Positions 11,846 to 30,588 of a stretch of DNA of 40,579 bases are shown here, piece by piece. Position 1 is the stretch's first letter. Each line of letters starts with the position of its first letter. Made by a program: the position numbers and the translations under genes. This stretch comes from Bacteroidota bacterium (GTDB taxonomy: Bacteria; Bacteroidota; Bacteroidia; Bacteroidales; FEN-979). Under the pieces are notes generated by a model. That model ran no database searches, was not told where the DNA came from, and saw only the letters and a program-made list of their open reading frames with translations. The DNA lies in NCBI GenBank assembly GCA_026391845.1, contig JAPLDG010000302.1, positions 1-40,579 of the forward strand. The letters run 5' to 3'.

Positions 11846-13630
11846 TTATTTGTTAACCGGAAGTGAGTAAAGATGGACAAAATCCGGAAGTATGGTTTGG
11901 TAGTGGCGCGACTTTGGAACGTGGCCCATGACAAGGAATGAACCTGCAGCACCATTCAGAAAGCGTCCGGGAACAAGTTTCAGTGATTCGTAATATTTGG
12001 GGTTCTGATCCTTGTCATACCCATGAAAATCAACCGTGGCAACAATGCTGAAGCTGGTATCGCTAAACCTGATTTCCTTCAGGTCGTAACGCCAATCGCG
12101 GTTGTACCGGTAAACAACCATCCTATTTCCTTCTCCGGGAAGGCTAAAAAAGAGATCTGCAGGTTTAAGGGTATCCAGCCCGATGGTTTTTCCGGAATGA
12201 TTTTGTTTTTCGTTATAAACATGCTCCCAGTTCTTTGCGGTGACATTCAGTTTTCGCAGTGAGTATCCCGGTTTGCCATCCTTTTTGTTCCTGGAAACCG
12301 TCAAAACAACATCGTTTGGAGTCCCGGAAAGAAACCTGCCCACAGAGATGCCGGTTTCCTGCACATTCCGGTCCCATTCGGTTACCAGGCTGTTGTTATC
12401 AGAAACCACTACTTTCCACGCTCCGCCTGATTTTCCATCGGGTTCAAAGGACATCACTTTCCACGAGCCCTTATCGGAAATCATCAGAATTTCGGAGCGT
12501 TGATCGCCATCGAAATCGCCGGCATAGAGTGCATCCACAGGGTCATTCGATTTCCAGATGATTTTCAACCCGGTTTGTACCGGACTTGCGCTGTTGCAGG
12601 GTTTTTCAGACGGATTGAGCTCAGCAAGCATCCAGCCCTTCTCACCCGTCACGATGAACTGATCGGTTTGGGTTGACAGAAATCTCCCTTTTACAATCTT
12701 GTTTACAGGGGCAACCGATGCCACTGCCGCGGGGTTGGTCAGTTTGATTTTCCGGAATTCACGGTTTTCCGGACAAAAGGCATAAGAGGCGAGGCTGCCA
12801 TCTTTCTTCAGCAGGAGTAATCCATCGTTGCCGGTATGTAAAAAATCCCCTGAGATTGCAGCATCCGCGGGGTCGGTATCCGCTGCATTCAACTCAGGTT
12901 CCAATGATTCTTTTTCCAATAGTGACACAGGGAAGGGTGGATAGTTGAGTTTTTGGATATATCCGGCAGGCTTTGTCATATCTACCCGTGCTGAATCACC
13001 ACGCCGGTCAACCGCACCGCCAAACGCAATGAAATAATCATCAATCAGGATATCGGTGCTGCTGTTATTCCAAAAATAGACCTGAAGTTTATAGCCGGGT
13101 TTAAAGCCGATTGAGGTCAGGTCGATATAGGTGCTGATTTTAAACCACTTCCCTTTGGGAACTTCCGGTTCCGTAACAGCAAGTCCCCTCCAGCAAACAT
13201 TGACACCTACTTCATTGGAGGCGGTAAAGACGAGGCTTCCTTTCACATCATTTTTCGTCGGCAACACATAAATCCAGGCGCTCAATGCCACCGCTTTGAG
13301 GTTTTCGACACCGATTTCTCCGGCAGTTCGTTCCACAACCACGCTGAAGCTGTTTTGTCCGAATGCTTTTACAGAGTATTGCCCCGAGTGTGCCAACCCT
13401 TTGTAGAATCCGCTTGGCATCGCCTTTCCGGGGGCGACTTCGAAATCATAATAGAGAGAATGGGGTGAAAGATCCTGGACCTTTTCCGGGTTGACAAACT
13501 CTTTTTCCAATCCTGCCGGCATTTTCACCATTTTAGTGAAAGGGAAATATTTCAGCCCCAGCGCCAGTATGACCATTGAAAACAACAACAGCATACCCAG
13601 GATGGCCAGTCTCTTTTTCTTTTTCTGCAT
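11846..13630 (-). CDS. membrane-anchored protein with CBM/jelly-roll-like domain followed by FG-GAP-like beta-propeller
   Basis: N-terminal TM; YDFEVAP...SGQYSVKAF...LQVYFWNNSSTDILIDDYFIAFG; repeated GDFLHTGNDGLLLL, GRFLSTQTDQFIVT, AGDFDGDQRSEILMI, GRFLSGTPNDVVLTV, GRFLNGAAGSFLVM blades. Confidence 0.72.
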   Translation of the reverse strand: MQKKKKRLAILGMLLLFSMVILALGLKYFPFTKMVKMPAGLEKEFVNPEKVQDLSPHSLYYDFEVAPGKAMPSGFYKGLAHSGQYSVKAFGQNSFSVVVERTAGEIGVENLKAVALSAWIYVLPTKNDVKGSLVFTASNEVGVNVCWRGLAVTEPEVPKGKWFKISTYIDLTSIGFKPGYKLQVYFWNNSSTDILIDDYFIAFGGAVDRRGDSARVDMTKPAGYIQKLNYPPFPVSLLEKESLEPELNAADTDPADAAISGDFLHTGNDGLLLLKKDGSLASYAFCPENREFRKIKLTNPAAVASVAPVNKIVKGRFLSTQTDQFIVTGEKGWMLAELNPSEKPCNSASPVQTGLKIIWKSNDPVDALYAGDFDGDQRSEILMISDKGSWKVMSFEPDGKSGGAWKVVVSDNNSLVTEWDRNVQETGISVGRFLSGTPNDVVLTVSRNKKDGKPGYSLRKLNVTAKNWEHVYNEKQNHSGKTIGLDTLKPADLFFSLPGEGNRMVVYRYNRDWRYDLKEIRFSDTSFSIVATVDFHGYDKDQNPKYYESLKLVPGRFLNGAAGSFLVMGHVPKSRHYQTILPDFVHLYSLPVNK

Positions 13631-13640
13631 GCAGCTTTTG

Positions 13641-16600
13641 TTAACGGATCAGGATCATTTTCAGGCTACAAAGGTAATCTCCGGCTGTCATGCGACAGGT
13701 ATATATCCCGGCAGGAACCTGATTACCCCGCTCATTTTTACCATCCCATACCAGCACATGCGACCCGGGCTGCAAGGCGGTCTCACTCCAGGTGCGCAGC
13801 TTCGTTCCTTGCAGGGAGTAGATTTCAATGGTCACATCACTCATGGATGAAAGATCGTACCTGATCTGTGTTGCCCCTGAAAATGGATTGGGGAAATTTC
13901 CATCAAGCCGGGTTTTTGTCAGCGATTTTGGGTCGTCAACCTTCACCGGAAAGGTGACATGCAAGGTTACCGGTATCACAACTTTGTTGTTGTATAAATC
14001 GCGTGCCACCAGTTTGCACTGGTAGGTGCCGGGAACCAGTCCGGCTGCATTGATATTCACATCAACAATCCCTGTCTGGTTGTTCGTCAGGCTTCCTGTG
14101 GGGTTGGTCAGTGAAACCCAGGTATTTGCCAATCCGAAATTCTTTATCTTGACCGAACCTGGCAGGGTATGCTGTATGGCTCCCATGTTATCGCCCTGGA
14201 GCTGATACACCACAAAAACATCATTCATGAAAGATTTGCCGATGGTGCCCGACACTGTGGCAGTTGCAGTTTCGCCGGGTTTTAACACTCCCCTCCCTCC
14301 GGTGCTTTCACCGTGCCAGGTCAGCGAAGCCCCGTTACCGGCCGTTCCCTGAAAGGCAAGTTCCCCGAGCGATCCTCCCGAGAAATTGGTTGCGCCGGTA
14401 GTTTCAACTCCCGGTGGAAAATCAAGTTTGAGGTTTTTGATGTATTCATTGTCGGTACTCAGGTTATGCACCGTAAAGATCCAGCTGATGGTTTGTCCGG
14501 GAACAAATCCTTCGGTACCGCAGGCAACATATGAGCCGGTGATGTTGTCGGTTTGATTGACCGACTTATAAGCCGTTGTATCAAAAACCTGTACCGAGTA
14601 ATGCATGATCCCGCCACCCTGATTTGTGATAAAAACAGATTCTGTGGTATCCTGCCCTGTGACGAGGGTTTTTTCCACAGATAGTGGCGTGGCAGAGAGC
14701 ACCGGAACAGCGCCTTCAACCAGTGGAAGCTTGATAAAATCGATCAGGCAGCCATCCCATCCTGCAGAAACTGAATAATCCTTGTGGTAAACCCATGAAA
14801 GCAGGTGGTATCCCAGCGGCACCTGGAATGTTTCCTTGCTCCATACAATTTCGCCATCCCAGCGGGCTACTTCATAATTGTCGATAAAAAAGGCCAGATA
14901 ATCATATTCGTGGTTCCCGCTTGGATCATGTTCGCATGAAACATACTTGTAGAATGAGACCGGACCTTCGGTCAGCACATGTACGTTTAAATTGAGTTTG
15001 CTCTCCTGGCTATCGCCAAGCCATGCTGAACGGGCGCTGAAATTTCCCTCATATTTTACCCCTGTTTCAATGATCCAGGGTGCCTGGCCTCCGCTGAACC
15101 AGGGGAATTTCCCGAAATTTCCGGTTTCAAAATCTTCCACAATTTCCCCTGAAAAGAGGTAAATCGTATCGGTATTGGCAAAGTTGTTATTGGCCGAAAG
15201 CACAGATTGGATCTGAAATAAATGCTCGGAGGAAGTTGAACTGCCGGCTGCTGCGTGGAAAGTGAGTGTTTTCGACGAATCAGGTTTCAGCATGTTGATA
15301 TAGGCTGAATTTACGCTGAGGGTGAGATTGGTGTCTAACGAAGTAAGCTGTACATTGATCGAAGAGGCCTTTGAGCTTCCTGCATTTTTGAATGTAATCA
15401 GCATGTCTGCATTTTCTCCCGGATCAGGACTTCCGTTATCGCCATCAGAAAATTGTGTTCCGGTGATGTGAAACACAGGCGCATGGGCGACAAGTCCGAA
15501 TACCCGTTGAAAATTATGCTCGAGCGACTGAACGTTGAGCTGAAGGCTGAAGGAATGGTTATCTGGCACGCCCGGATTAATGTTGAATGAAAGGGCGTCT
15601 GTGAGGGTTACAGACTGCCCCCCGGAAATGGATGCAACTGTTTCCGTGCTATCGATGAGGGTTATATAAGGATCTGACTCAGTGATGGTAAAGACAATCT
15701 GATTCATCGCCTGCCCCCCTATATTGTTGGTGTTCAAGGTGATTTTTGCCGTTTCTCCGAATTCGATCAGGCTGTCACCGCCGGACAAAATAGTCTGGTT
15801 AACCAGTAATCCGGCCGAGCTGAACAGCAGCACTTTGGTTGAGGAAACATTGTTAATGTCTGTCACCTGAAATTTGACAGGCAAATTCTGGTAGGCGGTA
15901 ACAGGAGTTCCCGTAAATTTTCCATCTTCAGAAATCTGCATTTCCGGCGGGAAAGAGCAGGTAGCAAATTTATCCTTGGTATTGCTGGTAATAGTGCTAC
16001 CGTTGTGAAAAAGAGAGAATTGGTAATTTTTATTATCGCCCGAAGAGATCCCGCCTGTCCAGGTTGTACCGACCGGATAGGTCATGTCGCCATAATAATA
16101 TTCGATGGTCCCGTTTGGATAAAGTTTCACGGCAAAGTTCAGGTTGGTAGTTCCCTGCATGCTGGTGACAGAGGCTTTCCACCGGAAGATCGCGTAGCCG
16201 GCATTCCCTTCATACCATATACCCTGGCCGGCAGAGGGGTAAATCGTGAGGTCGCCCATGAAAGGAGCAATGATGCCGGTTTGTTTGAACAGCAGCATTT
16301 TATCGACGAGGTAGGGCCATGTAAAGGGCTGATCATCAAACAGGATGTACCCGCCTGCATAGACATAGACTTTATTGATACTTTTTTTATAGAATGGGAA
16401 ATTGAAATCAAGTGTTTTGACAGAATACCCTGTATTATTATTGGTAAGCACAAGTTGCTGGGCGGTAATGGCTGGAAAAGTAGCAGAGGTAGTGGTTTCG
16501 GGATAATCAAGTTTTACGTCCCACAGATACGGGAGGCTTCCGTTGGTGGCCGTAAGGGTTACATTGTATGGTTCGTACAGTTGAGCTGCAGGTAATGCAG

Positions 16601-18065
16601 CAGTGGTGATTGACGGTTTAATGATACCTTGCGTGTAATTGAGGCTGAGGCGGGTCGTGGTGTTATTCAGGATCGGCAGATTGGTACCGGGGTAGTTGGT
16701 GGTAATGGCAGATGTGCCCGAATAATCGATGAGTGACCAGCTTACAATCTCCCCCGTGGCCAGGCCTGAAGGGTCGGCTTCCTGAACCTGCAGAAAAAAT
16801 TTTGCCGGCTGATTGCTGGTGATCTGGTTGACCAGTGGCGTTACGTCGAGTCCGAATTCAATGGTTTTATCTGCTTCAGTAGTACCGCCCTGCATAAAAA
16901 GATCGCCCCCCTGATAGTTAAAGATGGGGAATTCCTGAACAAAGGAGGGGACTGTTGCGGCCATATCAGTGGTCACACCGGCAGTAACCTTAAGTTTATT
17001 GCGTGAATTGTGCTTCAGTGTAACTTTCATGGTAAGTTGCGGGGCGCATGATTTTTTCACATCCAGTACATACACCGTATGGTTCCAGATACCGCCAAAT
17101 GCGATATCGTCGGCCAGATTTTTGTACATGGTATAGCAAAATCCTGCATCACTCCAGCTTGGACCGGCATATCCATTGGAGAATTTCACACCGCCCTTTT
17201 CCCAATCGTGTACATCAACCACCCCATCGCCGTTGATGTCGATGTTGTTTGTATAAAGGCCGTCTCCATTAAAATCGAAACGGATAGAGTCGTTGTAGCC
17301 GCAGATGGTCCATGCATGCGAAGGGCTGCTTCCCCAGAAAGTGTTCACATATTTACCTGCTTCCGGTGTGTTGGCCGGCAGGGTGGTTGAGGGCGTACCG
17401 AAGTACTGGCCATAAATATTTGCAACGCCTCCCACATTCGATCCCTGGAGATGGTCGAACAGCCAGTATTTCAGCTTTTGCAGTCCATCGGAGTTGTCAA
17501 CCCGGATGGCCTTCACGGAGTTGATACGGTTATGCATGCCATTGTAGTAGAGGTCGTATCCCGAAATCCACCGCGTATATCCACCGGTATTCGTAGCCCC
17601 TCCATAATCGGCAACATTCATGGTGCCACATGCTTTTACGATTTCCCAGGAATCAAAAAAGCTGGCCCCCTGGTAGTTGTTTGCATTGTTTAAAAAATCC
17701 CAGACAAAGTGGGTCGGATACTGTGTCGAACCCTGGTTGGCCGCCACTTCCCTTGCACGGTCGATCTCATAGGTAAAATTAAATGCAACGCCTGCCGACT
17801 GGCCGCATTCATATCCTGACTGCCAGGTTATTGGCCTGAAATAGGGTTGTAAAGAGTTATCCACGGCTGAGGGCAGCAGCGGCGCATTAACCCCTTTGTA
17901 TAACTCCGGCATTGGCAGTTCGGGAATGTTCGACAGAACAAAAAGTTCATCCGGTGTCAGCGAAACCGGTTCAAGGCCCATCTGATACGGAAGGTTTTGG
18001 GAATATGCCCTCAATCCGGAAAATACAATCAATGGGAGGGTGAGCAGGAGAAGGATGTTTTTCAT
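13641..18065 (-). CDS. large T9SS-secreted protein with N-terminal papain-like (C1-like) peptidase domain and C-terminal sorting domain
   Basis: Signal peptide MKNILLLLTLPLIVFSGLRAYSQ; WQSGYECGQSAGVAFNFTYEI; SHAWTICGYND; C-terminal NFPNPFSGATQIRYDLSSMSDVTIEIYSLQGTKLRTW...LVWDGKNERGNQVPAGIYTCRMTAGDYLCSLKMILIR. Start reassigned from 18101. Confidence 0.75.
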   Translation of the reverse strand: MKNILLLLTLPLIVFSGLRAYSQNLPYQMGLEPVSLTPDELFVLSNIPELPMPELYKGVNAPLLPSAVDNSLQPYFRPITWQSGYECGQSAGVAFNFTYEIDRAREVAANQGSTQYPTHFVWDFLNNANNYQGASFFDSWEIVKACGTMNVADYGGATNTGGYTRWISGYDLYYNGMHNRINSVKAIRVDNSDGLQKLKYWLFDHLQGSNVGGVANIYGQYFGTPSTTLPANTPEAGKYVNTFWGSSPSHAWTICGYNDSIRFDFNGDGLYTNNIDINGDGVVDVHDWEKGGVKFSNGYAGPSWSDAGFCYTMYKNLADDIAFGGIWNHTVYVLDVKKSCAPQLTMKVTLKHNSRNKLKVTAGVTTDMAATVPSFVQEFPIFNYQGGDLFMQGGTTEADKTIEFGLDVTPLVNQITSNQPAKFFLQVQEADPSGLATGEIVSWSLIDYSGTSAITTNYPGTNLPILNNTTTRLSLNYTQGIIKPSITTAALPAAQLYEPYNVTLTATNGSLPYLWDVKLDYPETTTSATFPAITAQQLVLTNNNTGYSVKTLDFNFPFYKKSINKVYVYAGGYILFDDQPFTWPYLVDKMLLFKQTGIIAPFMGDLTIYPSAGQGIWYEGNAGYAIFRWKASVTSMQGTTNLNFAVKLYPNGTIEYYYGDMTYPVGTTWTGGISSGDNKNYQFSLFHNGSTITSNTKDKFATCSFPPEMQISEDGKFTGTPVTAYQNLPVKFQVTDINNVSSTKVLLFSSAGLLVNQTILSGGDSLIEFGETAKITLNTNNIGGQAMNQIVFTITESDPYITLIDSTETVASISGGQSVTLTDALSFNINPGVPDNHSFSLQLNVQSLEHNFQRVFGLVAHAPVFHITGTQFSDGDNGSPDPGENADMLITFKNAGSSKASSINVQLTSLDTNLTLSVNSAYINMLKPDSSKTLTFHAAAGSSTSSEHLFQIQSVLSANNNFANTDTIYLFSGEIVEDFETGNFGKFPWFSGGQAPWIIETGVKYEGNFSARSAWLGDSQESKLNLNVHVLTEGPVSFYKYVSCEHDPSGNHEYDYLAFFIDNYEVARWDGEIVWSKETFQVPLGYHLLSWVYHKDYSVSAGWDGCLIDFIKLPLVEGAVPVLSATPLSVEKTLVTGQDTTESVFITNQGGGIMHYSVQVFDTTAYKSVNQTDNITGSYVACGTEGFVPGQTISWIFTVHNLSTDNEYIKNLKLDFPPGVETTGATNFSGGSLGELAFQGTAGNGASLTWHGESTGGRGVLKPGETATATVSGTIGKSFMNDVFVVYQLQGDNMGAIQHTLPGSVKIKNFGLANTWVSLTNPTGSLTNNQTGIVDVNINAAGLVPGTYQCKLVARDLYNNKVVIPVTLHVTFPVKVDDPKSLTKTRLDGNFPNPFSGATQIRYDLSSMSDVTIEIYSLQGTKLRTWSETALQPGSHVLVWDGKNERGNQVPAGIYTCRMTAGDYLCSLKMILIR

Positions 18066-18089
18066 GGTGCAGAACGCTTTGATGCAGTA

Positions 18090-18097
18090 CAAATTTA
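18090..18097 (-). promoter_or_regulatory. Bacteroidota-type -7 element (TAAATTTG) upstream of the protease gene
   Basis: CAAATTTA on plus = TAAATTTG on minus, 24 nt before the ATG at 18065. Confidence 0.4.
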
Positions 18098-19558
18098 TCA
18101 CTTATTTTTCGATTGGCTGTAAGAATATATGGCATTCAGCATCAGCGCCGTGTCAAGAGACATATGCTGGTCCCGGGCATTTTTGGTAATCTGTGCATAC
18201 CATTCGGCATTGCCCCTGATCGTCAGGATAAGGTGTTGAATGGAGTCCCAGTAGGTTTTTCCCGGCAGGTTATCGTAGTTTGAGCTGAAGGTATATTCTG
18301 CATTGGTGCGGATCATTTCATCCAGCGGAAGTTGCTGCTCCCTTGATTTTTTGACCATGAACCGAAACCATTCACGGTCGATGCGGATGCTGTTTTCGAT
18401 TTTATCGAGCTGCGAATCCTGAACCTCGGGATGAAATGCCAGATAAGCCTCATCGGCAAAATTCCAGAAGCAGCAATGAAGGTTAATCTCTGAAACCATG
18501 AGTAAAATCACGTTGTATTTTTGCAGTTTCGCCCGTAAGTCACTCTTATCCAGTTTTACCGGGGGAAAGTCATTCTGGTGCGGATATTCACTGCTGTAGT
18601 AATACCAGTAATCCTGCCTGCCAAACATTTTCCTTCCATATGATTCAACCATGTTGACATAATAACTGTCGGCGACGATGAGACCGGCGAGCGTACCCTG
18701 GGCCATTGTATCAAACCTTGTGAGCGGATAAACGCCAGGTGTGGGTGGGAGCGGACAAACGAGGTTGAGCATTTCGCCGATGTCATAGTCTGTTCCAAGG
18801 GAATTGGGGGAGTGATGCAGCTTTGTATGTTGGAATGCAGGCATTTTTCTGCCGGTAACCGTTCCAATGTATTGTGATAGTTTATCAGCTGCGAGATGTG
18901 CCCCGTACAAACTCCAATGCATGCCATACCTTGAAAAAAGTGGAAACTTTGCCGTGTCTTTCATCTGCAGGAAGTAGCGGTTCAGATCGAGACAGGTTAA
19001 CCCGAGCGCCTCGGCCTTCTCTGCAAAACAGGTATAATTTGACTTCGATCTTTTTTCAGGATGGAAGCGATCGGGGATGTATTCGGGATAGAAACTGGCC
19101 TTCCCCGGTTCAAAAACAAGGATTAAAGGGATCTTGTAAGCAGCCAGGCTGTCCATCACATTTTTCAGACGGGAGAGTTTCCGGTCGATCACCTTCGTGC
19201 CGATAAAATATTTTCCGGTGTACTCGTGAATATAATCCTCCTCAAATAAGTACTGCTCCTTGCCCTCCAGAAAACCCAGGGCATGTGTGAGTCCAAAGAG
19301 GCTGTAGTCAGATTGATTGTTCAACCTGATCATTGATATACGGAATCCGGTGTAGTCGTTTATCCGTTTTGAAAACTCATCCTGGAATACGGAAGAAAAC
19401 CATCTTTGCCAGGTGAAAAATTTAAGTTCAGGAGCAGGAGGGTGGTCAAAAAAACCCTTCAACGGCATCTCGGTGACGAGCGGATAGATCATTTGAACCG
19501 GGGAAATTGCCAAACATAGCAGAATCAGGGGAAGAAGAATGAATTTAATGATTTTCAT
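18098..19558 (-). CDS. AlgX/AlgJ-like SGNH-type O-acetyltransferase-associated protein (copy 1)
   Basis: NQSDYSLFGLTHALGFLEGKEQYLFEEDYIHEYTGKYF, LILVFEPGKASFYPEYIPDRF, GMHWSLYGAHLAADKL, GLIVADSYYVNMVESYG; same architecture as 24732-25886. Confidence 0.78.
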   Translation of the reverse strand: MKIIKFILLPLILLCLAISPVQMIYPLVTEMPLKGFFDHPPAPELKFFTWQRWFSSVFQDEFSKRINDYTGFRISMIRLNNQSDYSLFGLTHALGFLEGKEQYLFEEDYIHEYTGKYFIGTKVIDRKLSRLKNVMDSLAAYKIPLILVFEPGKASFYPEYIPDRFHPEKRSKSNYTCFAEKAEALGLTCLDLNRYFLQMKDTAKFPLFSRYGMHWSLYGAHLAADKLSQYIGTVTGRKMPAFQHTKLHHSPNSLGTDYDIGEMLNLVCPLPPTPGVYPLTRFDTMAQGTLAGLIVADSYYVNMVESYGRKMFGRQDYWYYYSSEYPHQNDFPPVKLDKSDLRAKLQKYNVILLMVSEINLHCCFWNFADEAYLAFHPEVQDSQLDKIENSIRIDREWFRFMVKKSREQQLPLDEMIRTNAEYTFSSNYDNLPGKTYWDSIQHLILTIRGNAEWYAQITKNARDQHMSLDTALMLNAIYSYSQSKNK

Positions 19559-19696
19559 CGGATCGCTTTGGGTGTTACTCTTTCTGGTGGCTGATTTCCT
19601 CTACAAAACTAAAGAAAATTAAAACCCGTTGGCGAATTTTTCCTATTTTTACCCGCTTAAAATGTAACTCAATCCCGTATTGCCTATATTTTCCAG

Positions 19697-21265
19697 ATGA
19701 AAAGAAACGCTGATCTTATATTTATCGGGCTGTTATTTGCGGTATCCTTTCTGTACGGTTATCATGCCATTCTGTTTGCCCGTCCGACCTATCATCACAT
19801 ATGGCGGCAATCGGACTGCCTGTCGATCACCAAAAACTATTACGAAGATAACCGTAACTTTTTCAGGCCGGCCATCAACTGGGTTGGCGACAAAGGGGGA
19901 AGGACCGTCAGTGAATTCCCGATCATCTATTTTTCCGTGGCACAACTCTGGAAAATCTTCGGATACCATGAATTCATTTTCAGATTGATTGATGTCCTCC
20001 TGGTATTCACGGGGCTTTTCTCACTTTTCAGGCTTGCGCGTGAATTGCTATCAGACACTTTCTGGGCCGCCATCATCCCCCTGTTCCTGTTCAGTTCACC
20101 CATCCTGGGTTATTTTACAAATAATTTCCTGGCCGACGCCCCTGCCCTGGGCCTTACGCTTACCGGCTGCTATTTCTACTGGAAAGCTTTCGCGAAGCAA
20201 AGCAACAAATGGTATCTTTTATCCTTTCTCATCTTCCTGCTGGCCGGCCTGTTGAAAATCTCCTCGCTGGTGATATTCATCGCCCTGTTTATCATCCAGG
20301 TTTACAGGATTATTTTTCGTGGGAGAGAAAAAGCCTGGCACACCAGCTTTTCCCGTTTGTGGCCCTTTTTATTGGTCCTTCTGGGGATCCTTGCCTGGTA
20401 TAGTTATGCCGGGAATTATAACAGTCACAACCTGAATGGCATCTTTCTCCATGGGATCCTGCCGATCTGGGGAATCGATGCAGCCGCAAGATCGGAGATA
20501 TGGAAATCGGTCGTAAAAACCCTGTTGCCCGGCTTCTTTACCATACCTGCACTGATTTTCGACCTGGCAGCTTTTGTCTCCCTGTTCCTCTTTTATAAAA
20601 AAATCAACCGGTTTTTCCTGTTTCTGAGTCTGCTGGTATTCATCGGATGTATCGGCTTTTTTCTTCTTTTCTATCAGGTTTTCAACGTGCACGATTATTA
20701 CCTCACCAACATGCTGATTTTCATACCGCTGCCGCTGATTACCCTGCTTGATTTGCTTCACCGGAAATATCCCGTTGTATTTAACAATAAATTTCTCAAA
20801 ATAGGCGCAGCGCTGTGTTTGGTGGCCCTTCTGTACATCGGAGCCGTGAATACAAGAATGAGATATTTTCCAAGGCAGGCTTTTGTGCAGAAGAGTATTT
20901 TCGTTAACAAGGAAAATATCTCTTCATGGATTCAATGGTCAGACTATTGCGGAACCTATTTCAAAGCATTTGAGACTATCACGCCCTATCTTCGAAGTTT
21001 GGGCATCAAACGCGACGACCTGGTTTACAGCACCCCCGACGGAACCATCAATGTAACCCTTTACCTGATGGATCAAAAGGGGTTCAGTGATTTCTACATC
21101 GGCGGTATTTCGGAGGACCAGCGGATTGAGACGGTGAAATCATATGGAGTTAAATATCTGATCATCAACGATTCGGTGTTGTATCGAAAACCGTTTCTGG
21201 CTCCCTACCTGCTGCACAAGATCGGCACCTATCAAAATGTGGATATCTTTGATATAAGCCATTAG
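19697..21265 (+). CDS. GT-C-like (GT39/ArnT-type) polytopic glycosyltransferase
   Basis: Multi-TM; luminal-loop motif YHHIWRQSDCLSITKNYYED; LADAPALGLTLTGCYFYWKA; soluble C-terminus. Confidence 0.75.
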   Translation: MKRNADLIFIGLLFAVSFLYGYHAILFARPTYHHIWRQSDCLSITKNYYEDNRNFFRPAINWVGDKGGRTVSEFPIIYFSVAQLWKIFGYHEFIFRLIDVLLVFTGLFSLFRLARELLSDTFWAAIIPLFLFSSPILGYFTNNFLADAPALGLTLTGCYFYWKAFAKQSNKWYLLSFLIFLLAGLLKISSLVIFIALFIIQVYRIIFRGREKAWHTSFSRLWPFLLVLLGILAWYSYAGNYNSHNLNGIFLHGILPIWGIDAAARSEIWKSVVKTLLPGFFTIPALIFDLAAFVSLFLFYKKINRFFLFLSLLVFIGCIGFFLLFYQVFNVHDYYLTNMLIFIPLPLITLLDLLHRKYPVVFNNKFLKIGAALCLVALLYIGAVNTRMRYFPRQAFVQKSIFVNKENISSWIQWSDYCGTYFKAFETITPYLRSLGIKRDDLVYSTPDGTINVTLYLMDQKGFSDFYIGGISEDQRIETVKSYGVKYLIINDSVLYRKPFLAPYLLHKIGTYQNVDIFDISH

Positions 21266-21266
21266 C

Positions 21267-21283
21267 CTGTCGGGTGCCGGCAG
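21267..21283. terminator. small GC-rich hairpin in the convergent intergenic gap
   Basis: ctgtcgg-gtg-ccggcag (7-bp stem, one G-U) within the 33-bp gap between two convergent stop codons; no clear U-tract. Confidence 0.35.
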
Positions 21284-21298
21284 TTACGCCAGCAGGTT

Positions 21299-23185
21299 TC
21301 AATTGTTTACGATCCTGTAAGAAATCACGAAATCATCCATTCCTACCGGCTTCTTTTCAGGATTCCAGAGATAGACCTTCAATTGGTTTTCGGGGTCTGA
21401 ATTTCTGATCGTTCCTGAAACGGTGATCGTGTTCCATTGGCGAAGTTTTAATGTTGGCGGTTCATCCACTCCCGACTGGTGGTAATCGAGCACTACCTGG
21501 TTTTTCTCCTTTGAAATGACCAGGCTTAACCATTTCGGATTCATCACTTCATAAGGGAAGACCTTTACCGTGGCAGTGATCATCATCCCCGGTTTTTTGG
21601 TTAAATCTGTACATTTTCCAAAGAAACCCGGGCTGAATTCCGATGCCAGGACAAAAAATGAATTTCCGGTACTATCCTTCCGGCAACTGTCGCTGCCCGC
21701 CCTGAACGACCGGTCGTCGAAATGGTTTGAATAAAATGGAACCTCTTGTCCCTGCAGCATATCCTTTTCTGACAAAACCCTGTAAACTGAATTATCCAGG
21801 TTGAAGTAGCGTTTGTTTAACCCGCGGATATCGAGATTTTTCGCCCAGGGAGCGCAGATGAACAGATTGGAATCATTCAGGTTGGTTCCCTCATCGATTT
21901 TTCCGGTTACATCATTGACATAGATACTTACCGATGAATCGGGAGATTGAAGAGAGCTTAACAGGAGTGTTTCAGGGGCAAGCGCCCAGTTGACGTTTAC
22001 CTGCTCCCGGTCAACCATGGATTCGCTGACAATGAACTTCTTTTCGGGGAAGTGTCTGGTGATGGCGATCAGATTCCGGAGGTAGGCTTGGCGGTTTTTG
22101 TAAAAGAGGGCTGCTCCTGCCACATGAAAAACCCCCGTCACAAAAAGCAGAATCAGAAACCATTGGGAAATAATCCTGTTTCTTCCGGAGACAAAAACCA
22201 CATCCTTCAGGAATGGAATCAGCAGGAAGATATTCAGCCCCATGAGGTTTTTCTCCTGGATGAACGGGAAGTACCAGATGTTGAAGGTTGTGAAAAGAAC
22301 CAGCAAAAAAAGCAGCAGGGAAACCAGGTAATAGGTTAGTTTCAGGTAATCTTTCTTCACCACATACCAGGCAATGGTGACGAAAAACAGGATCATGGAG
22401 AAGAGGTAGATATTGAATGCTTTTACATTGAGGAATTTGAAACTTTCAGAATGAAAAACATCGCCGAGACGCACAAAGAACTCGCCGAAACCCTTAAAGT
22501 AAAAACTCTCATATCCGCTGGAGGAGCTGCTGTAAAATTTCAATAGGGCCAATGCGATAATAATGCCTCCCAGGAGATAGCCCTCCGGTTTCAGCCAAAG
22601 CTTGTTGTCGATAACGAAAAAGCCCAGGACAAATAATACCGTAAACAATGCGACAGGGTGTGAATAAAAACAGAGAAACAGGATTCCGGTTGCCACGATC
22701 AGCCGGAGGATCCAATAAAAAATACCGGGTTTAAACCGCAGGGACCAGGTTAAGAAGGCGTAGAAGAGAATCGTGTAAACCAATGCCTGGTGTGTCTCGG
22801 TCGAAATCCAGAAGTAGCTGTATTTCACTCCCAGCAATAATAACAGCGGAACCGCGAGCGCAAGCCGGTCGAGTTTGAATCCATAGGCGATCACAAGGAA
22901 TATCAGATAATACAGGAGCACAAATGAGATGGAATAGACCCCGAGGATGACTTTCAGCGGCAATCCGAAATGAATCGCCAGCAAGGCCAGCGATTGAGGT
23001 GCGACCGCGGCGATGCGACCTGCTTCTACAATATAGTCTCGGTAATAGAGGAAATTGAACAAAGCATAACATGGATCAACAAAGATGGTCCGCTCCATGT
23101 AAAACAGGAGCGCCAGGATGAACAAGACGAGGAACATCAGTTGTCCCAGCAATTTATTATTCAACAAAATATTTTTTGCCGGCAT
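21299..23185 (-). CDS. polytopic (GT-C-like) membrane protein with C-terminal CBM/jelly-roll-like domain
   Basis: Multi-TM N-terminal ~480 aa; C-terminal ~147 aa FYSNHFDD...QLKVYLWNPEKKPVGMDDFVISYRIVNN resembles domains in three neighbours. Confidence 0.68.
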   Translation of the reverse strand: MPAKNILLNNKLLGQLMFLVLFILALLFYMERTIFVDPCYALFNFLYYRDYIVEAGRIAAVAPQSLALLAIHFGLPLKVILGVYSISFVLLYYLIFLVIAYGFKLDRLALAVPLLLLLGVKYSYFWISTETHQALVYTILFYAFLTWSLRFKPGIFYWILRLIVATGILFLCFYSHPVALFTVLFVLGFFVIDNKLWLKPEGYLLGGIIIALALLKFYSSSSSGYESFYFKGFGEFFVRLGDVFHSESFKFLNVKAFNIYLFSMILFFVTIAWYVVKKDYLKLTYYLVSLLLFLLVLFTTFNIWYFPFIQEKNLMGLNIFLLIPFLKDVVFVSGRNRIISQWFLILLFVTGVFHVAGAALFYKNRQAYLRNLIAITRHFPEKKFIVSESMVDREQVNVNWALAPETLLLSSLQSPDSSVSIYVNDVTGKIDEGTNLNDSNLFICAPWAKNLDIRGLNKRYFNLDNSVYRVLSEKDMLQGQEVPFYSNHFDDRSFRAGSDSCRKDSTGNSFFVLASEFSPGFFGKCTDLTKKPGMMITATVKVFPYEVMNPKWLSLVISKEKNQVVLDYHQSGVDEPPTLKLRQWNTITVSGTIRNSDPENQLKVYLWNPEKKPVGMDDFVISYRIVNN

Positions 23186-23197
23186 AACGGGATGGAA

Positions 23198-24655
23198 TTA
23201 AAACCTGAAATAGATAAACGGGTTGAATCCTGATGAAGTAATGGTCGCCTCGCTCAGAATGAAGAGGATGATCGAAATGACCGAGAAAACGATGATCATT
23301 GAATTTCCCGGATTGAAATAGAGTTTTTCAATCCAAATATCCACTTTTTTTGAGATTCCCCAGAAAGAGAAGAGGATGGCGATTGCAAGCATCGTCCAGA
23401 ATTTCGGGTTCAGCCAAACGACATTTTCAGTGCCCCTGAACATGAACATCCGCTGAATGTAAAACCATGCATCATCCGGTGACCCGGAGCGGAAGATAAC
23501 CCACCCGACCGTAATCAGCAGGAAGGTGATGCCGATGGACGGAATCCTGCCCGCCTTTTTCAGATATTTCAGGAGGAAAAGACGGTCGAAAATGAGGAAA
23601 AGAGCCATGTAAGCGCCCCAAATGATGAAGGTCCATGCAGCGCCATGCCAGAATCCGCAGAGCAGAAAGGTTACAGATGTTGCAATGAGGTAAATATATT
23701 TATCGGCCCGAAGCCCGATATAATATTCCTTCGGTAGTTTGCGTGACGTTGCGTAGGCCAGCGGAAGAAAAATGTAATCCCTGAACCAGAAAGAGAGGGT
23801 GATGTGCCACCTCCGCCAGAATTCCGTGATGCTTTGGGATATATAGGGGAAGTTGAAATTCTCGGGCAGTTTAAAACCAAGCATCCGCGCCAGACCGATC
23901 GCCATATCGGAATATCCCGAAAAATCAAAGTATATCTGGAAGGTGTATGCGATTGCACCAATCCACGCGATGCCACTCGATAACTCGTTGGGCCCGAGTT
24001 CGAAAATTTCATTGACCGTCGTACCGATCACATCGGCGATCAGCACTTTTTTTGCCAGTCCGATCATGAAGCGTATAAAACCGGTGAGGCGATAATCGAT
24101 GGTCTCCTGGCTTTTGCGGTCGGTGATCTGGCTGGCAATCTGACCAGGCCGTACGATAGGGCCGGCTAGTATCTGGGGAAACATGAAGATATAGAGTGCA
24201 AAATCCTGCAGTTTGGCAAAAACCGGTTGCTGTTTTTTATATACATCCAGGGAATAGGCCAATTTCTGGAAGGTAATGAACGAGATTCCCACCGGAAGAA
24301 CGATCCGTGTCCATTCTGCCGGTGGAGAACCAAACCAGCCCATAATTGCCTGAAACTGATCGAAAAAAAAGTTCATGTATTTGAAATACAGAAGCAGAGC
24401 CAGGTTCATAAACACCAGCAGCCACATGAGCCGCTTACGGCTGTCGCCTTCCTCCCGGCTCATCAGGTTGACAATGAAGAAATCGATCACGACCGACCCC
24501 ATCAGGAAAAAGACAAACTTCGGAGCGCCCCATGCATAGAAAAATATACCTGCCAAAAGCAGGAACCAATTTTTGAATTTCTGGCCCAGGAGGTAATAGA
24601 CGATCAGGAAAAACGGCAGAAAATAGAGCAAAAACAAACTGCTGTTGAATATCAT
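23198..24655 (-). CDS. MBOAT family O-acyltransferase (AlgI-like)
   Basis: VLPVGISFITFQKLAYSLDVYK, FPQILAGPIVRP, YFDFSGYSDMAIGLARMLGF, NFNFPYISQSITEFWRRWHITLSFWFRDYIFLPL, LLCGFWHGAAWTFIIWGAY. Confidence 0.95.
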   Translation of the reverse strand: MIFNSSLFLLYFLPFFLIVYYLLGQKFKNWFLLLAGIFFYAWGAPKFVFFLMGSVVIDFFIVNLMSREEGDSRKRLMWLLVFMNLALLLYFKYMNFFFDQFQAIMGWFGSPPAEWTRIVLPVGISFITFQKLAYSLDVYKKQQPVFAKLQDFALYIFMFPQILAGPIVRPGQIASQITDRKSQETIDYRLTGFIRFMIGLAKKVLIADVIGTTVNEIFELGPNELSSGIAWIGAIAYTFQIYFDFSGYSDMAIGLARMLGFKLPENFNFPYISQSITEFWRRWHITLSFWFRDYIFLPLAYATSRKLPKEYYIGLRADKYIYLIATSVTFLLCGFWHGAAWTFIIWGAYMALFLIFDRLFLLKYLKKAGRIPSIGITFLLITVGWVIFRSGSPDDAWFYIQRMFMFRGTENVVWLNPKFWTMLAIAILFSFWGISKKVDIWIEKLYFNPGNSMIIVFSVISIILFILSEATITSSGFNPFIYFRF

Positions 24656-24731
24656 AGGTTGACTGTTATGGTTTCTTGTTCTGGATTACGGATAGTTTGC
24701 ATGTTCATTTACTTATCATCAGAAAACACCC

Positions 24732-25886
24732 TTATTTGCGTGCTTTTTCAAAAAGTCTGTCAACGAAATAGTAGCCTAATTCGCCGTAACCGGCATTTGT
24801 CTGGAGAATGATAATGGCATCCTGCCGTAAAAGCGCCTGATTCAAATCCTGGCCAGCACTGAGTTTCCCGGTCGGATAGGTTCCGTAGTAAACTTCATGG
24901 TCATAATACCAGAAGTCGCGGTTTGAAAATACTTGCCCGATGTACCCTGTTTCTGCCCAGGCGAAATAAAAACTGTCGCCAATGAAAAGGGCTGAAAAAG
25001 GGCGCCGGTTCGCCGGTTTTGAATAGGTCACCACAGGATAGGCCAACGGTGGGGCAGTTATGTTGCAAATGAGGTTGAGCGCCCTCCCTACATCGTCGTC
25101 GCGGCCCATCGGTGTCTTGCTGACCCTGTTTTGCACAGATTCAGGATGCGGAAGTTCGGTTCCGGTTTTTATTTCAAGGTATTTAACCAGCGAATCCATC
25201 GCCAGGAACGAGCCATATCTGCTCCAGTGGATCCCGGTTTTCGGATAAAGAGAATACCTGGCCGTATCTTTCATCTCCAAAAACCATGCATTGAAATCGA
25301 TGCAGTTGACTTTCTGTTCTTCCAGTTTCCGGCGATACCAGGAATAATTTGTATTCCCGCCGGTTGCTTTCCTGAACCTTGAAGGGATGTACCCGGGGTA
25401 AAAAGTTCCTTTGTCGGGCAACAACAGAACCAGGAAGAGAACTCCTTTCTCTTTCCATAGCCAGTCCTGCGCCTCGCGGAACTGTTTTGCACGGGCATCA
25501 ATGTTCTTAACCCCGATGAAATCCCCGCCTGACCAAGCCTTGATATACTGTTCCTCAAAAAGATAGTCATCTTTTCCAATCACGACCCGCCTGGCGTTTG
25601 GAATGCGGAAAAGGGTGAAGTCAACCTGGTTGTGCAAGCGAACCAGTTCGTTGTGAAACCCGATGCTGCCGTTGTAATGCTTTGACAGAAGAGGCAGGTA
25701 AGTCCCGGAAAAAAGGGCGGGAAAACTGAATTTCGGATACGGGTTCGGTTCACTGTAACCATCCAGCGACTTTGACCACACCGGGCGAAAGGCTTTCTGG
25801 AATGCGGGAAAGACAGACAACCCCGCGATGAAGATTAACAAGACCCGTTTGACCGATGTTAATGTTTTGCCTGTCATGACCGGCAA
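24732..25886 (-). CDS. AlgJ/AlgX-like SGNH-type O-acetyltransferase-associated protein (copy 2)
   Basis: VDFTLFRIPNARRVVIGKDDYLFEEQYIKAWSGGDFIG, LVLLLPDKGTFYPGYIPSRF, GIHWSRYGSFLAMDSLVKYL, ALFIGDSFYFAW; directly upstream of the MBOAT gene. Confidence 0.85.
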   Translation of the reverse strand: MPVMTGKTLTSVKRVLLIFIAGLSVFPAFQKAFRPVWSKSLDGYSEPNPYPKFSFPALFSGTYLPLLSKHYNGSIGFHNELVRLHNQVDFTLFRIPNARRVVIGKDDYLFEEQYIKAWSGGDFIGVKNIDARAKQFREAQDWLWKEKGVLFLVLLLPDKGTFYPGYIPSRFRKATGGNTNYSWYRRKLEEQKVNCIDFNAWFLEMKDTARYSLYPKTGIHWSRYGSFLAMDSLVKYLEIKTGTELPHPESVQNRVSKTPMGRDDDVGRALNLICNITAPPLAYPVVTYSKPANRRPFSALFIGDSFYFAWAETGYIGQVFSNRDFWYYDHEVYYGTYPTGKLSAGQDLNQALLRQDAIIILQTNAGYGELGYYFVDRLFEKARK

Positions 25887-25957
25887 AAATAGTAAAATTT
25901 GGCACGTAAGGCACCCTGTTTCCCGGCATAACCGGTCAAACAGATCGGGTTAATTAA

Positions 25958-25965
25958 TACTTTTG
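25958..25965 (+). promoter_or_regulatory. Bacteroidota-type -7 element (TACTTTTG)
   Basis: TAnnTTTG match 17 nt before the ATG at 25983; no clear -33. Confidence 0.4.
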
Positions 25966-25982
25966 TTTTCAAATGTTTATTT

Positions 25983-27395
25983 ATGATCCGGAAAATCAAA
26001 TTCAAATCTCCTGATTCCAGATTCTTTACCGATGCCCTGCTGGTGTTTTTATCTGCCATTGTTTTGTGCTACATGGCATTCTTCAATGGATTTCCTTTTT
26101 TCTATTCCGATACGGGGGCTTATCTGCAGGCTGCATTCGGCAGTTACAAACCTGTTGACCGGCCGCTGATATACAGTATTTTCCTGAGAAATACCAGCCT
26201 TTCAATATCATTGTGGCTGGCTGTATTTGCACAGGCCCTGTCGGTGGCAGTCCTGGTGTTTTATTGCTTCAAACACCTCTCCGGAACCCCGAAATTCAGG
26301 GTTTATTACGTGATCTATATTTTTCTGATTACTTTTTTTACCGGAGTGTCTGTCAATGCAGGCCAGCTGATTCCTGATGTGTTCGCTCCGGTTATGCTGC
26401 TTTGCCTTGCCCTGCTTATTTTTGCCAGGAGATTAACGCTCATTGAAACCCTGGTGATCTCCCTGTTTTTCATCTTTTCCGTGAGCGTGCATAATTCTCA
26501 TTTTATCATTTCAACACTGATCCTGCTTGGATTCCTCTCTGCTTTCATTTTTAAAAAGAGAAGGCAGTCACTTCAGAAAGCAGAGGTGAAAATCCGCCGG
26601 ATCATTTACGGTCTGATGCTGGTGGTATCTTCTTATTACATTGTATGCACCGTTCATTACAATGCCGGGTTAACGTATGCCGTATCCCGTCACGGGCATG
26701 TGTTTTTCATGGCCAGGCTGTTTGATTGCGGCATCCTGGAGGCATATCTGGCGGATGCCTGCCCGAAATACCATTACAAGTTGTGCAGTTATCAGCATCA
26801 GTTTTCATGGGATTTTCTCTGGGATTATGACAATAGTCCCCTGTATAAAACCGGGGGGTGGGAAGCCAATCGCAAGGATTTCAATGCCATCATCCGCGAC
26901 ATTCTGACAACCCCGAAATACTGGCCGCGCCTCATCGCCCGGGAAAGTGAAGCAACCTTCCGGCAATTCTTTACTTTTGAAACGGGTGATACGGGTCAGC
27001 AGTTGGAGGGTTCCTCGTCTATTGCGGCTGTCCGCGCGCACTGGCCTGAAAATGTCAAAGAGTTTTTTCAGAGCAAACAGGAGGCGAAAAAACTTGACTG
27101 GACACTCTTGAATCATCTTCAGACATACCTGACAGCGTTTCTATTTCTATGCAGTGTGCTCGTTTACCTGGTTCCGGGATTCGATCCGAAGTACAAACTT
27201 TACCTCACCTTTATTCTCATCGCCTTGCTGGTCAATGCGTTTGTTTGCGGTGCTATCTCCGGTGTCATTGACAGGTACCAGTCGCGGGTGATCTGGCTTC
27301 TTACCATGCCTTTTATGCTGTATATCGCCAGCAGAGAGGTTTCTTTAACCCCGCTGAAAAAATTATTCAGCGTTTCCAGGCGTACCGGTACCTGA
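25983..27395 (+). CDS. polytopic GT-C-like membrane protein
   Basis: Multi-TM; first luminal loop FPFFYSDTGAYLQAAFGSYKPVDRPLIYSIFLR. Confidence 0.6.
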   Translation: MIRKIKFKSPDSRFFTDALLVFLSAIVLCYMAFFNGFPFFYSDTGAYLQAAFGSYKPVDRPLIYSIFLRNTSLSISLWLAVFAQALSVAVLVFYCFKHLSGTPKFRVYYVIYIFLITFFTGVSVNAGQLIPDVFAPVMLLCLALLIFARRLTLIETLVISLFFIFSVSVHNSHFIISTLILLGFLSAFIFKKRRQSLQKAEVKIRRIIYGLMLVVSSYYIVCTVHYNAGLTYAVSRHGHVFFMARLFDCGILEAYLADACPKYHYKLCSYQHQFSWDFLWDYDNSPLYKTGGWEANRKDFNAIIRDILTTPKYWPRLIARESEATFRQFFTFETGDTGQQLEGSSSIAAVRAHWPENVKEFFQSKQEAKKLDWTLLNHLQTYLTAFLFLCSVLVYLVPGFDPKYKLYLTFILIALLVNAFVCGAISGVIDRYQSRVIWLLTMPFMLYIASREVSLTPLKKLFSVSRRTGT

Positions 27396-29130
27396 TGGTG
27401 AGATCATCGGCAAATAAACGAGCCCCCGCCGGGTTGTTGATGAAGATATTGATCTGTAAAGAAGAGTCGTTTACATCCGGGATAATGAATGTCGTACGAA
27501 TGTTCGACCAGACCATGGGTTCGGTTACCCGGGATGCCAGCATGATGCTGTCGCCGAAAACCGGCTCATTTCCGCGGGTAACAGTGTAAGAAAGCGCAGC
27601 GTTTCCCAGACGAATTCCGGGAGATAACATCCAGACATCCACATCCATCATTTTTGGCCAGGGATATTTCAACTCATCTAATCTGATGGAATACAGGGGA
27701 GTTGTTTTACTTTTCACATCGCCTGCGACACTGTACTGCCCCGAATGGGTGAAGATCGGGGAAGGTTTGCTGACCGGGCAAATGGCAAGGTTTTCAAAAT
27801 CATTTTTAAACGAATTGATCCGGTGAACCGGCGAAATGATCCCTGCCCGTTCAACCGACTGCCGGTAGTGATCCCAGTCCCATGCCGACCCATAGTAACA
27901 GCGGTCGAACCGGTAAATGACTGCCGAGTAGCGCAGATTGGCATATACCAGAAAAAAAATCAGAAACAACACGGTGGTTTGAATCAGGAAAAAGCGGTTG
28001 TTGAACAAACTGGTTATCAGCCAGGCCAGTGGAACAGCGAGGATGGTATAATATTCTATGAATGGTCGCTGGCCATAACTGCATCCGAAGTACCACATTT
28101 TCCAGGAGGCGCTGATCAGCGTCACCAGCAGGAATATTCCGGCAATGAGCCATCCATTCGATCTCCTGTGAAGAATCATCATGATTGTGCCGGCTATCAT
28201 GAAAATTACCACCGGCGAATAGGTCAGCAACCCATTCAACGGTGAAAACAGTACTTCTGCAAGCTGAGGATGACTCCAGTTGGTGAATCCTTCATCCCGG
28301 TATGAAAAATGGAGCCAGCTCCCGGAGAGATATTTCCAGTAAACCATTTGCGGCAGAAAAACAGCAAAAAGGATTGCCAGAAATGAAAGCAGATACGATG
28401 GCTTCAGGAACAGCTTAACACGTTTCATCCACCCGGAGAGATTTTCACCATCCCAGGCGAAGAAAAGCAATCCAGGAAGGATGTTGGTAGGCCGGATCAG
28501 CGTGGCCAGCGAAAGGGTGAGGCAAATCAGTATGAAATATGGATAGTATTGCGAAATCTGGAATTTCTTCAGGGCAAATAGAAACAGTGCGAAGAGGAAA
28601 AAGGAATAAACGTGCGACATCAGCCCGTCAATGAGCGCGTAATAAAAGAGGTTGGTTCCGAGAAAAATCACGGTGATGACGAACATATTTACAACCGGAT
28701 GAAAATAATGATCCAGGAATTTTTTCAGGAACCATAATCCAAGGATCAGGTAAATAACCGCAGCCAGGTTCATCATCCGCATATAGATCATGGAAAAACC
28801 CTGTTCGCAATCATACCCTGCAATGGCGGAAACAAGGCCGGAGGCTAAAAAGAATGGAGAGAGCATGAGCGCCACGCCATAAGTGTATTTTGTATCCAGT
28901 TTGTTTTTCAGCGTATCAATGCTGAAGCCTCCGCCTGTAAGGATGTCGAGATCGGCTGGCATCGTGCGCGTATCAAAATGGTAGAAAAAAACAGCCGGAA
29001 GATAAATGTAGTATCCGGCCCGGTCGGAACCAAGATCTGAACTGCCGTTAAAACGAACCACGTCCCTGTGAAAAAACCAGGTAAGAGCCAGTGAGGCACA
29101 AAACAACACGTAAAAAAACCATTTTACCAT
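27367..29130 (-). CDS. polytopic GT-C-like glycosyltransferase with C-terminal CBM/jelly-roll-like domain
   Basis: DLGSDRAGYYIYLPAVFFYHFDTR luminal loop, many TMs, C-terminal SGQYSVAGDVK...SSLQINIFINNPAGARLFADDLTIRYRYAWKR. Start set to MVKWFFYV; alternative start MGADSEI at 29172. Confidence 0.68.
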   Translation of the reverse strand: MVKWFFYVLFCASLALTWFFHRDVVRFNGSSDLGSDRAGYYIYLPAVFFYHFDTRTMPADLDILTGGGFSIDTLKNKLDTKYTYGVALMLSPFFLASGLVSAIAGYDCEQGFSMIYMRMMNLAAVIYLILGLWFLKKFLDHYFHPVVNMFVITVIFLGTNLFYYALIDGLMSHVYSFFLFALFLFALKKFQISQYYPYFILICLTLSLATLIRPTNILPGLLFFAWDGENLSGWMKRVKLFLKPSYLLSFLAILFAVFLPQMVYWKYLSGSWLHFSYRDEGFTNWSHPQLAEVLFSPLNGLLTYSPVVIFMIAGTIMMILHRRSNGWLIAGIFLLVTLISASWKMWYFGCSYGQRPFIEYYTILAVPLAWLITSLFNNRFFLIQTTVLFLIFFLVYANLRYSAVIYRFDRCYYGSAWDWDHYRQSVERAGIISPVHRINSFKNDFENLAICPVSKPSPIFTHSGQYSVAGDVKSKTTPLYSIRLDELKYPWPKMMDVDVWMLSPGIRLGNAALSYTVTRGNEPVFGDSIMLASRVTEPMVWSNIRTTFIIPDVNDSSLQINIFINNPAGARLFADDLTIRYRYAWKR

Positions 29131-29158
29131 TTCACTATTTCGACTTTTCGCTATTTCG

Positions 29159-29806
29159 CTATCTGCTCCCATCCGGTGTAAAATAGTTAATTTCAATATC
29201 ATCCACCAGCAGCTCACCTTGCCCATGGTACCAGAAATAGGCCTGCAGCACATCTTCACGATCGGTCGCCAGGGGAATGCGGTAATCGATGGCAACCCGG
29301 TTCCATTGATTCTGTTTCAGGTTTTCATTTTCCAGGGGGATAAACATATACTTATAGGTAACGTCATGGCGGTTGCAGGTGGCAACCAGGTTGCATTGTA
29401 TTTCCCGGGGCGGGCAGGAAAACCAAACATATCCGGTTGCCCTGATCCAGGAGGAATCTCCAGGCTTGATGTCTTTAAATTTAATCCATAAGCCCGGAGA
29501 AAACGGAACGGTTGAACTCATTCTATAGGATTGTTTTCCACCATGGCCGGTATTGGCCAGATGCGCATTGGTGTCGGCGGCACTGCCCGATTCGAAATCA
29601 TGAAAAGCCAGTTGTTTTCCTTTTCCTTCAAGGATTTCAGGAAGCTTTTCACGCTCAATCGATGCAGAAGAAACACTGGTTTGATGTGTATCCTGGTAGG
29701 ACTTGTAAAAATTCACAAGGATTAAAACCCCCAACAATGAAAAAGCTGTAAGGCCCGCAAATATTGATTTTCGGGAAAAGCGATTTTCATTGTTGCCTTC
29801 TCGCAT
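29159..29806 (-). CDS. single-pass membrane-anchored CBM/jelly-roll-like protein
   Basis: N-terminal TM (FAGLTAFSLLGVLILVNFYKSY) then AFHDFESGSA...GGKQSYRMSSTVPFSPGLWIKF...VLQAYFWYHGQGELLVDDIEINYF. Confidence 0.68.
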   Translation of the reverse strand: MREGNNENRFSRKSIFAGLTAFSLLGVLILVNFYKSYQDTHQTSVSSASIEREKLPEILEGKGKQLAFHDFESGSAADTNAHLANTGHGGKQSYRMSSTVPFSPGLWIKFKDIKPGDSSWIRATGYVWFSCPPREIQCNLVATCNRHDVTYKYMFIPLENENLKQNQWNRVAIDYRIPLATDREDVLQAYFWYHGQGELLVDDIEINYFTPDGSR

Positions 29807-30540: not shown

Positions 30541-30588
30541 AAAAACCAGTTCAAAAGGCAAAAATAAGAGAAAATATCAAGGAATGCC

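Follow-up and report, generated by a model that had tools for sequence, protein, structure and literature searches.

A distant CBM22-like domain on GT-C-type membrane proteins, a stand-alone anchored protein and a propeller-like protein of a Bacteroidia glycan locus

Four proteins encoded in one glycan locus of a Bacteroidota bacterium carry copies of a single beta-sandwich domain that is distantly related to the xylan-binding modules of family CBM22. Two copies form the C-terminal tails of polytopic membrane proteins (B and C), one makes up a stand-alone anchored protein (D) and one lies near the N-terminus of an anchored propeller-like protein (A). The window, by which we mean the whole 40,579-nucleotide stretch of DNA that was analyzed, and its features are laid out in Table 1. 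Computation establishes the domain as one family with a CBM-type fold, identifies protein C as a GT-C protein by its fold and reveals that both the domain and its gene linkage are conserved. We consider it reasonably probable, with some reserve, that the copies represent one CBM22-like periplasmic module with which the GT-C tails hold an acceptor polymer, and D and A either this polymer or a related one.

Table 1. Domain copies, neighboring genes and related proteins with their positions (window positions unless a locus is named).
Feature	Position	Strand	Context	Basis
Domain copy A	13022-13468	-	near N-terminus of anchored propeller-like protein, ORF 11846-13630	profile match, direct match to B and D
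Domain copy B	21305-21727	-	C-terminal tail of 628-aa polytopic protein, ORF 21299-23185	profile match, direct match to A and D
Domain copy C	27373-27822	-	C-terminal tail of GT-C protein, ORF 27367-29295	link via paralog F; AlphaFold; Foldseek
Domain copy D	29171-29617	-	stand-alone protein, one N-terminal membrane anchor, ORF 29159-29806	AlphaFold; Foldseek, CBM22 first
GH16-like lipoprotein	9916..11835	-		invariant YSEIDFE (ExDxE) motif
1,486-aa secreted protein	13641..18101	-	FlgD/Por sorting-type C-terminus	Pfam FlgD_ig 7.5e-12
AlgX-like SGNH protein 1	18098..19558	-		Pfam ALGX 1.5e-15
PMT_2-type GT-C protein	19697..21265	+		Pfam PMT_2 5e-9
MBOAT O-acyltransferase	23198..24655	-	AlgI/DltB type	Pfam MBOAT 8e-17
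AlgX-like SGNH protein 2	24732..25886	-		Pfam ALGX 2e-11
Polytopic 470-aa GT-C-like protein	25983..27395	+		9 predicted TM segments
GT2	29806..30561	-	resembles dolichol-phosphate mannose synthase	Pfam GT2; PDB 5MLZ E 1e-15
Second-tail GT-C clade members	L092:17518-19266, L106:5741-7477, L108:17334-19088, L129:100-1914

The domain family

A sequence-only reading of the window had picked out four proteins with a common pattern, and the four segments were located in its ORFs and at approximately its coordinates, all on the minus strand. Its positions were essentially right in each case, except that D begins about 75 nt later than written. The limits in Table 1 were set by a six-copy profile; the joint-profile scores of A to D are not independent evidence, because these copies trained that profile. 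Chance was assessed by phmmer against 1,200 shuffled sequences, and the pairs A-B (E 0.007-0.011), A-D (E 0.006-0.011) and B-D (E 1e-5 to 3e-5) each scored better than all 1,200. No direct phmmer match of C to A, B or D was found above the shuffles (best E ~1). Protein C does match paralog F on contig C144 (7e-5), and F matches D (3e-5) and a further domain copy, E (8e-6), so C belongs to the family by transitivity. The common pattern therefore stands, pairwise for A-B, A-D and B-D and transitively for C, whose family link, as judged from these alignments, runs through a protein outside the window.

When D alone was used as the query against its own assembly, it recovered A, B and proteins on contigs C241 and C144, which are polytopic paralogs of 629 and 613 aa, both with the domain at the C-terminus. 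A third polytopic paralog with the domain is encoded on contig C201. This copy (L160:2220-4226) is the seventh in the genome and sits on a different GT-C-like protein, with an HDEFSAI motif, outside the glycan locus; proteins similar to its carrier are also present in the class-level loci L200, L202, and L218.

Residue conservation was counted over 95 copies, namely D and 94 relatives. The DFE start is widely kept (F15 in 89 and E16 in 88 copies), W112 is present in all 95, and the C-terminal DD is nearly as constant (D146 in 94, D147 in 91). The DFE and DD residues may together bind calcium in a structural role, as happens in related CBMs. A Y-x-W motif is found with its Tyr (Y134) in 80 and its Trp (W136) in 71 copies, and window copy C is among those without the Trp. 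The window copies are mutually 15-26% identical, and domain copies group by protein slot, not by genome.

Fold and nearest relatives

A 35-copy profile searched against all PDB chains returned only CBM22 modules at E < 0.01. They are the xylan-binding modules CBM22-1 and CBM22-2 of Xyn10C from Paenibacillus barcinonensis (4XUP, 4.7e-9; 4XUO, 4e-4; 4XUN, 0.0016), and the next match follows at 0.2. The AlphaFold model of D, built with 94 further sequences, is nearly all beta (pLDDT 91.9, pTM 0.87), and in Foldseek its top matches are again CBM22 (4XUN with E 5.6e-6 and TM 0.53; 4XUP with TM up to 0.59), with CBM16, CBM27, CBM4, CBM15, and an alginate-binding CBM below them. Some non-enzyme proteins, such as BcsB, are also among the fold matches. 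The Tyr of the Y-x-W motif aligns with a Tyr of 4XUN. The proposal of one beta-sandwich, CBM-like family is thus supported by the profile search against the PDB, by AlphaFold and by Foldseek, and the structure check, run on D and C, found CBM-type folds in both modeled proteins. From the model and profile we are confident in describing the domain as a distant CBM22-like beta-sandwich, at ~15% identity and TM 0.53-0.59. Pfam CBM_4_9 matches three of the 35 copies (best E 4.3e-5). PF02018 detected no window copy, and an assignment to ordinary CBM_4_9 was rejected for this reason.

The proteins that carry the domain

Searches of Pfam and NCBIfam gave no match for proteins B, C, and D and weak ones for A, hence a known family for the whole domain-bearing proteins was rejected. 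Protein C has 11 hydrophobic helices followed by the domain as its C-terminal tail, and its true start is probably near 29172. Its AlphaFold model (pLDDT 93.0, pTM 0.91) matches EmbA, EmbB, and EmbC best among PDB structures in Foldseek, followed by AglB, PglB, OST, and ArnT, and its tail separately matches CBM22 and CBM16. The full-length TM-scores are low (0.33-0.41), which is expected for multi-domain matches and is not decisive. The first external loop has an Asp (Asp50) that is invariant in the alignments and present in 99% of 134 homologs, and PMT_2 is matched by 5 of 18 homologs (best 8.3e-8). The earlier call of C as a GT-C protein is borne out by the helices, the loop-1 Asp, the PMT_2 homologs, and the AlphaFold and Foldseek results together. 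With an odd number of helices, and provided that the N-terminus lies in the cytoplasm as we assume, the tail would be periplasmic and share its side of the membrane with the catalytic loop. Membership of the Emb/GT53 family was rejected by sequence, since a GT-C profile searched against the PDB did not match any Emb chain within a limit of E 10. Protein C is also without the second, N-terminal CBM and the 15 helices of Emb, and opens with its first membrane helix and the loop-1 Asp.

For protein B, 10 TM segments are predicted and the first helix is followed by a conserved Asp; this topology and this residue are the two features for which we call it GT-C-like. Protein D has a single N-terminal anchor. 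In protein A one anchor is followed by the domain and then by a propeller-like region; nine of the 12 orthologs match FG-GAP_3 in this remainder, with a best E of 7.5e-5, which lends weak support to the earlier propeller call.

Neighboring genes

The Dpm1-like GT2 encoded beside D is likely, from its sequence matches, to be the maker of a lipid-linked sugar donor, and its position next door provides a circumstantial case for a polyprenyl-phosphate sugar donor for C. Two further polytopic proteins encoded in the locus, the PMT_2-type protein and the 470-aa protein, gave no match to the domain profile; the latter may also be a GT-C enzyme. The MBOAT motif CGFWHGAAW is kept in 13 of 14 matches from family loci, with one variant. 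The AlgX-like proteins and their homologs have the nucleophile motif G/A-D-S in nearly all cases. Both of them, and nearly all family homologs checked, read G-x-H-W, with Gly in place of the Asp two before the His. The AlgX/AlgJ motif is D-x-H-W, so that the usual catalytic Asp would appear to be replaced by Gly in a conserved manner.

In all 11 family members the GH16-like lipoprotein has YSEIDFE, which corresponds to the E-x-D-x-E motif of GH16 enzymes, and YSEID[FI]E is found in 15 distant relatives. Its Pfam GH16 matches are weak (7 of 11 members, best 8.5e-4) and a search against the PDB gave no match. We read the N-terminus of the 1,486-aa secreted protein as cysteine-peptidase-like; this protein is kept in family loci at 55-78% identity. 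Further along the window, a SASA-type carbohydrate acetylesterase (37056-37895), with a counterpart at the matching place in G018, could strip acetyl groups added by the MBOAT/AlgX pair. A DDE transposase with DUF4372 lies at the window edge (39283-40455), and no link between it and the domain finding was seen.

Distribution and gene linkage

Each of the 36 further family genomes that were sampled has the domain, in 2-12 copies. In the sample for the order it is present in 135 of 295 genomes, which represent 101 of 184 genera, and in that for the class Bacteroidia, searched with a 95-row profile, in 193 of 395 (94 of 197 genera). A count of 7/395 obtained with the 35-row profile had pointed to rarity in the phylum. 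This was rejected in view of the class-level result, and the low figure is explained by sampling and profile depth. The family, order and class counts agree with the expectation that the fusion of GT-C and domain is conserved. Of the 31 domain-bearing ORFs in order-level loci, 25 encode polytopic proteins with the domain at the C-terminus; in the class-level loci 18 belong to the same GT-C family, 3 are other GT-C-like proteins, 8 are stand-alone, and the remaining 5 have one or two domain copies and then a propeller-like region resembling A. The recurrent architectures are a GT-C with the domain, the stand-alone domain, and the domain with an FG-GAP propeller beside a GH16-like gene. Two or three tandem C-terminal copies were observed in some order-level polytopic proteins (L170:97-2478, G605:C91, and G695:C15), the open frames of the latter two being 942 and 958 aa long.

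The GT-C family of C also has a domain-less form of ~430 aa, which ends where the domain would start. A small clade has a second kind of tail, a different C-terminal region of ~150 aa (Table 1), in which the domain profile found no match. On the GT-C tree five changes suffice for the three tail states, whereas shuffled states need 33 on average. Within the domain-bearing clade, one GT-C that seems to have no tail (L140) extends as far as the end of its contig and has probably been cut short there. Neighbors were compared in loci of at least 15 kb around 27 domain-bearing and 15 domain-less GT-Cs. An MBOAT gene is near 18 of the 27 but none of the 15 (p 1.4e-5, a value that, like the comparison in general, ignores shared ancestry), AlgX near 16 against none, and GT2 near 16 against 2.

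The locus set recurs, wholly or partly, in 14 other genomes of the family. It comprises GT2, the stand-alone domain, GT-C with the domain, an AlgX-like protein, MBOAT, GT-C B or another polytopic protein, a further AlgX-like protein, a cysteine-peptidase-like protein of ~1,480 aa, the propeller and the GH16-like protein. Distant genomes of the class also show split versions. One of them (G132) has four small domain proteins in alternation with a pair of PMT_2-like GT-C genes, and the adjoining GT2 is 66% identical to that of the window; in another (G226), two small domain proteins adjoin one fused GT-C. Fusion of parts in some lineages and their adjacency in others is a classic sign of functional coupling. 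The locus was also found in records titled Alphaproteobacteria bacterium (L094) and Draconibacterium orientale (L090), titles that are possibly binning or naming errors.

The GH16-like gene occurs in 54 of the 395 class genomes, 46 of which also have the domain (Fisher p 6e-9, ignoring phylogeny), and it lies within 6 kb of a domain match at 23 or more of 53 places. At 9 of 14 fetched loci it is directly beside a domain-bearing match to the propeller profile, two of these nine matches being short (382 and 392 aa), and many of the 14 loci also hold a Dpm1-like GT2, a GT-C core, MBOAT or an AlgX-like protein.

Proposed role and alternative explanations

From the fold, the predicted membrane arrangement and the company that the genes keep, we infer a topology, sugar binding, a donor, an acceptor, a shared substrate and a cooperation of the parts. 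The Dpm1-like GT2 would make a polyprenyl-phosphate sugar donor, from which the GT-Cs C and B would transfer the sugar in the periplasm, with their CBM-like tails, at the periplasmic face of the inner membrane, binding the acceptor polysaccharide and keeping it over the active site. The stand-alone anchored D and the propeller protein A may present the same or a related polymer, which the MBOAT/AlgX pair would O-acylate and the GH16-like protein would trim or remodel. The gene linkage makes a glycan substrate common to the four proteins, as suggested by the earlier reading, plausible. An acceptor-holding role is the most likely one for the tail by analogy with two precedents: the CBM mutation W868A in EmbC, with which LAM synthesis was not restored (PMC3044687), and the CBM of ORF12 (GT136) of Citrobacter youngae, which in isolation binds its unmodified O-polysaccharide (PMC11127046). 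However, ORF12 was also active when it had no CBM, at least in the conditions tested (PMC11127046), and this counts against our preferred reading, as do the distance of the CBM22 match, the missing Trp in window copy C and the two polytopic locus proteins that have no domain. More tentatively, and with rather less assurance than we attach to the module itself, we suggest a surface-polysaccharide system, so far undescribed and spread across the Bacteroidia, in which one periplasmic polymer is passed between sugar decoration, O-acylation and trimming by way of the module on GT-Cs, presenter, and propeller/GH16-like pair.

The main rival is that the domain is a CBM-shaped protein-protein docking module that joins the GT-Cs, the stand-alone anchor and the propeller/GH16-like pair in one membrane complex. 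Its presence on several proteins of one locus would suit such a role, non-enzyme proteins such as BcsB are among the fold matches, and the most strongly conserved residues (F, E, W112, D146, and D147) look to us structural and not ligand-facing. We nevertheless regard docking as rather unlikely, given that the nearest relatives by sequence and fold are sugar-binding modules, that the closest architectural relatives use their CBM for acceptor binding, and that the Tyr and Trp of the Y-x-W motif are each kept in most copies. A second rival, to which we give somewhat less weight still, accepts the domains as real CBMs with different ligands, each protein of the locus acting on its own glycan with no substrate in common. 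The low mutual identity of the window copies and their grouping by protein slot would fit this, as would the loss of the Trp in C and the C241, C144, and C201 paralogs outside the glycan locus, whereas the genes are kept together across the family and partly across the class, and the GH16-like gene co-occurs with the domain. That the four segments are unrelated and owe their likeness to chance or composition could be argued from the lack of a direct match of C to A, B or D above the shuffles. This we rejected as highly improbable, in the face of the pairwise shuffle tests and transitive linkage, the recurrence of the domain in hundreds of genomes and the CBM-type folds of C and D.

Several GT-C-type proteins of the locus are without a Pfam or NCBIfam match, and the common CBM-like tail provides a handle on them. 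Made alone, the domain could be used to fish for its glycan and in this way lead to the acceptors of otherwise unassigned transferases. The domain proteins, acylation pair and GH16-like enzyme, linked over much of the class, constitute a surface-glycan system that is open to experimental test. The existence of tailed and tailless GT-C relatives also offers a natural experiment on what a CBM contributes to a GT-C enzyme, which is unsettled for ORF12 (PMC11127046).

Comparison with known systems

The domain itself is closest to CBM22 (Xyn10C CBM22-1/-2 in 4XUP, 4XUO, and 4XUN; CBM_4_9), which gives the best profile and fold matches and has the same order of conserved segments. It differs in that the match to CBM22 is at only ~15% identity and PF02018 misses the window copies, and while CBM22 sits on xylanases, the window domain sits on biosynthetic membrane enzymes. 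The combination of MBOAT and AlgX-like SGNH proteins in one locus is as in the AlgI-AlgJ/AlgX and DltB/DltD-type O-acylation modules. The window locus departs from these in the G-x-H-W of its AlgX-like proteins and in the addition of GT-Cs and CBM-like proteins.

The Emb arabinosyltransferases (EmbA, EmbB, and EmbC) and AftD of mycobacteria are, like protein C, GT-C membrane enzymes with a C-terminal CBM, and Emb is the top PDB fold match of C. However, Emb has ~1,050 aa, 15 helices and an extra N-terminal CBM, against ~600 aa, 11 helices and one domain in C, and there is no sequence-profile match between the two. ORF12, also a GT-C enzyme, has a beta-rich CBM of ~150 aa at its C-terminus. This CBM is described as immunoglobulin-like and the enzyme as adding a pentofuranose, and the available portion of its report mentions no linked stand-alone or propeller copies, unlike the window locus. 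The sequence-only reading had not recognized the fusion as a described kind. This did not hold, since GT-C enzymes with a CBM are known in mycobacteria (EmbA/B/C, AftD) and Citrobacter (ORF12, GT136), and the architecture as such is not new. The open-access literature yielded no account of Bacteroidota GT-Cs with a CBM22-like tail, nor of the sharing of this domain with a stand-alone anchor and a propeller/GH16-like pair. What appears to be new is the CBM22-like version of the GT-C tail in Bacteroidia, within a GT-C plus CBM architecture that was already known.
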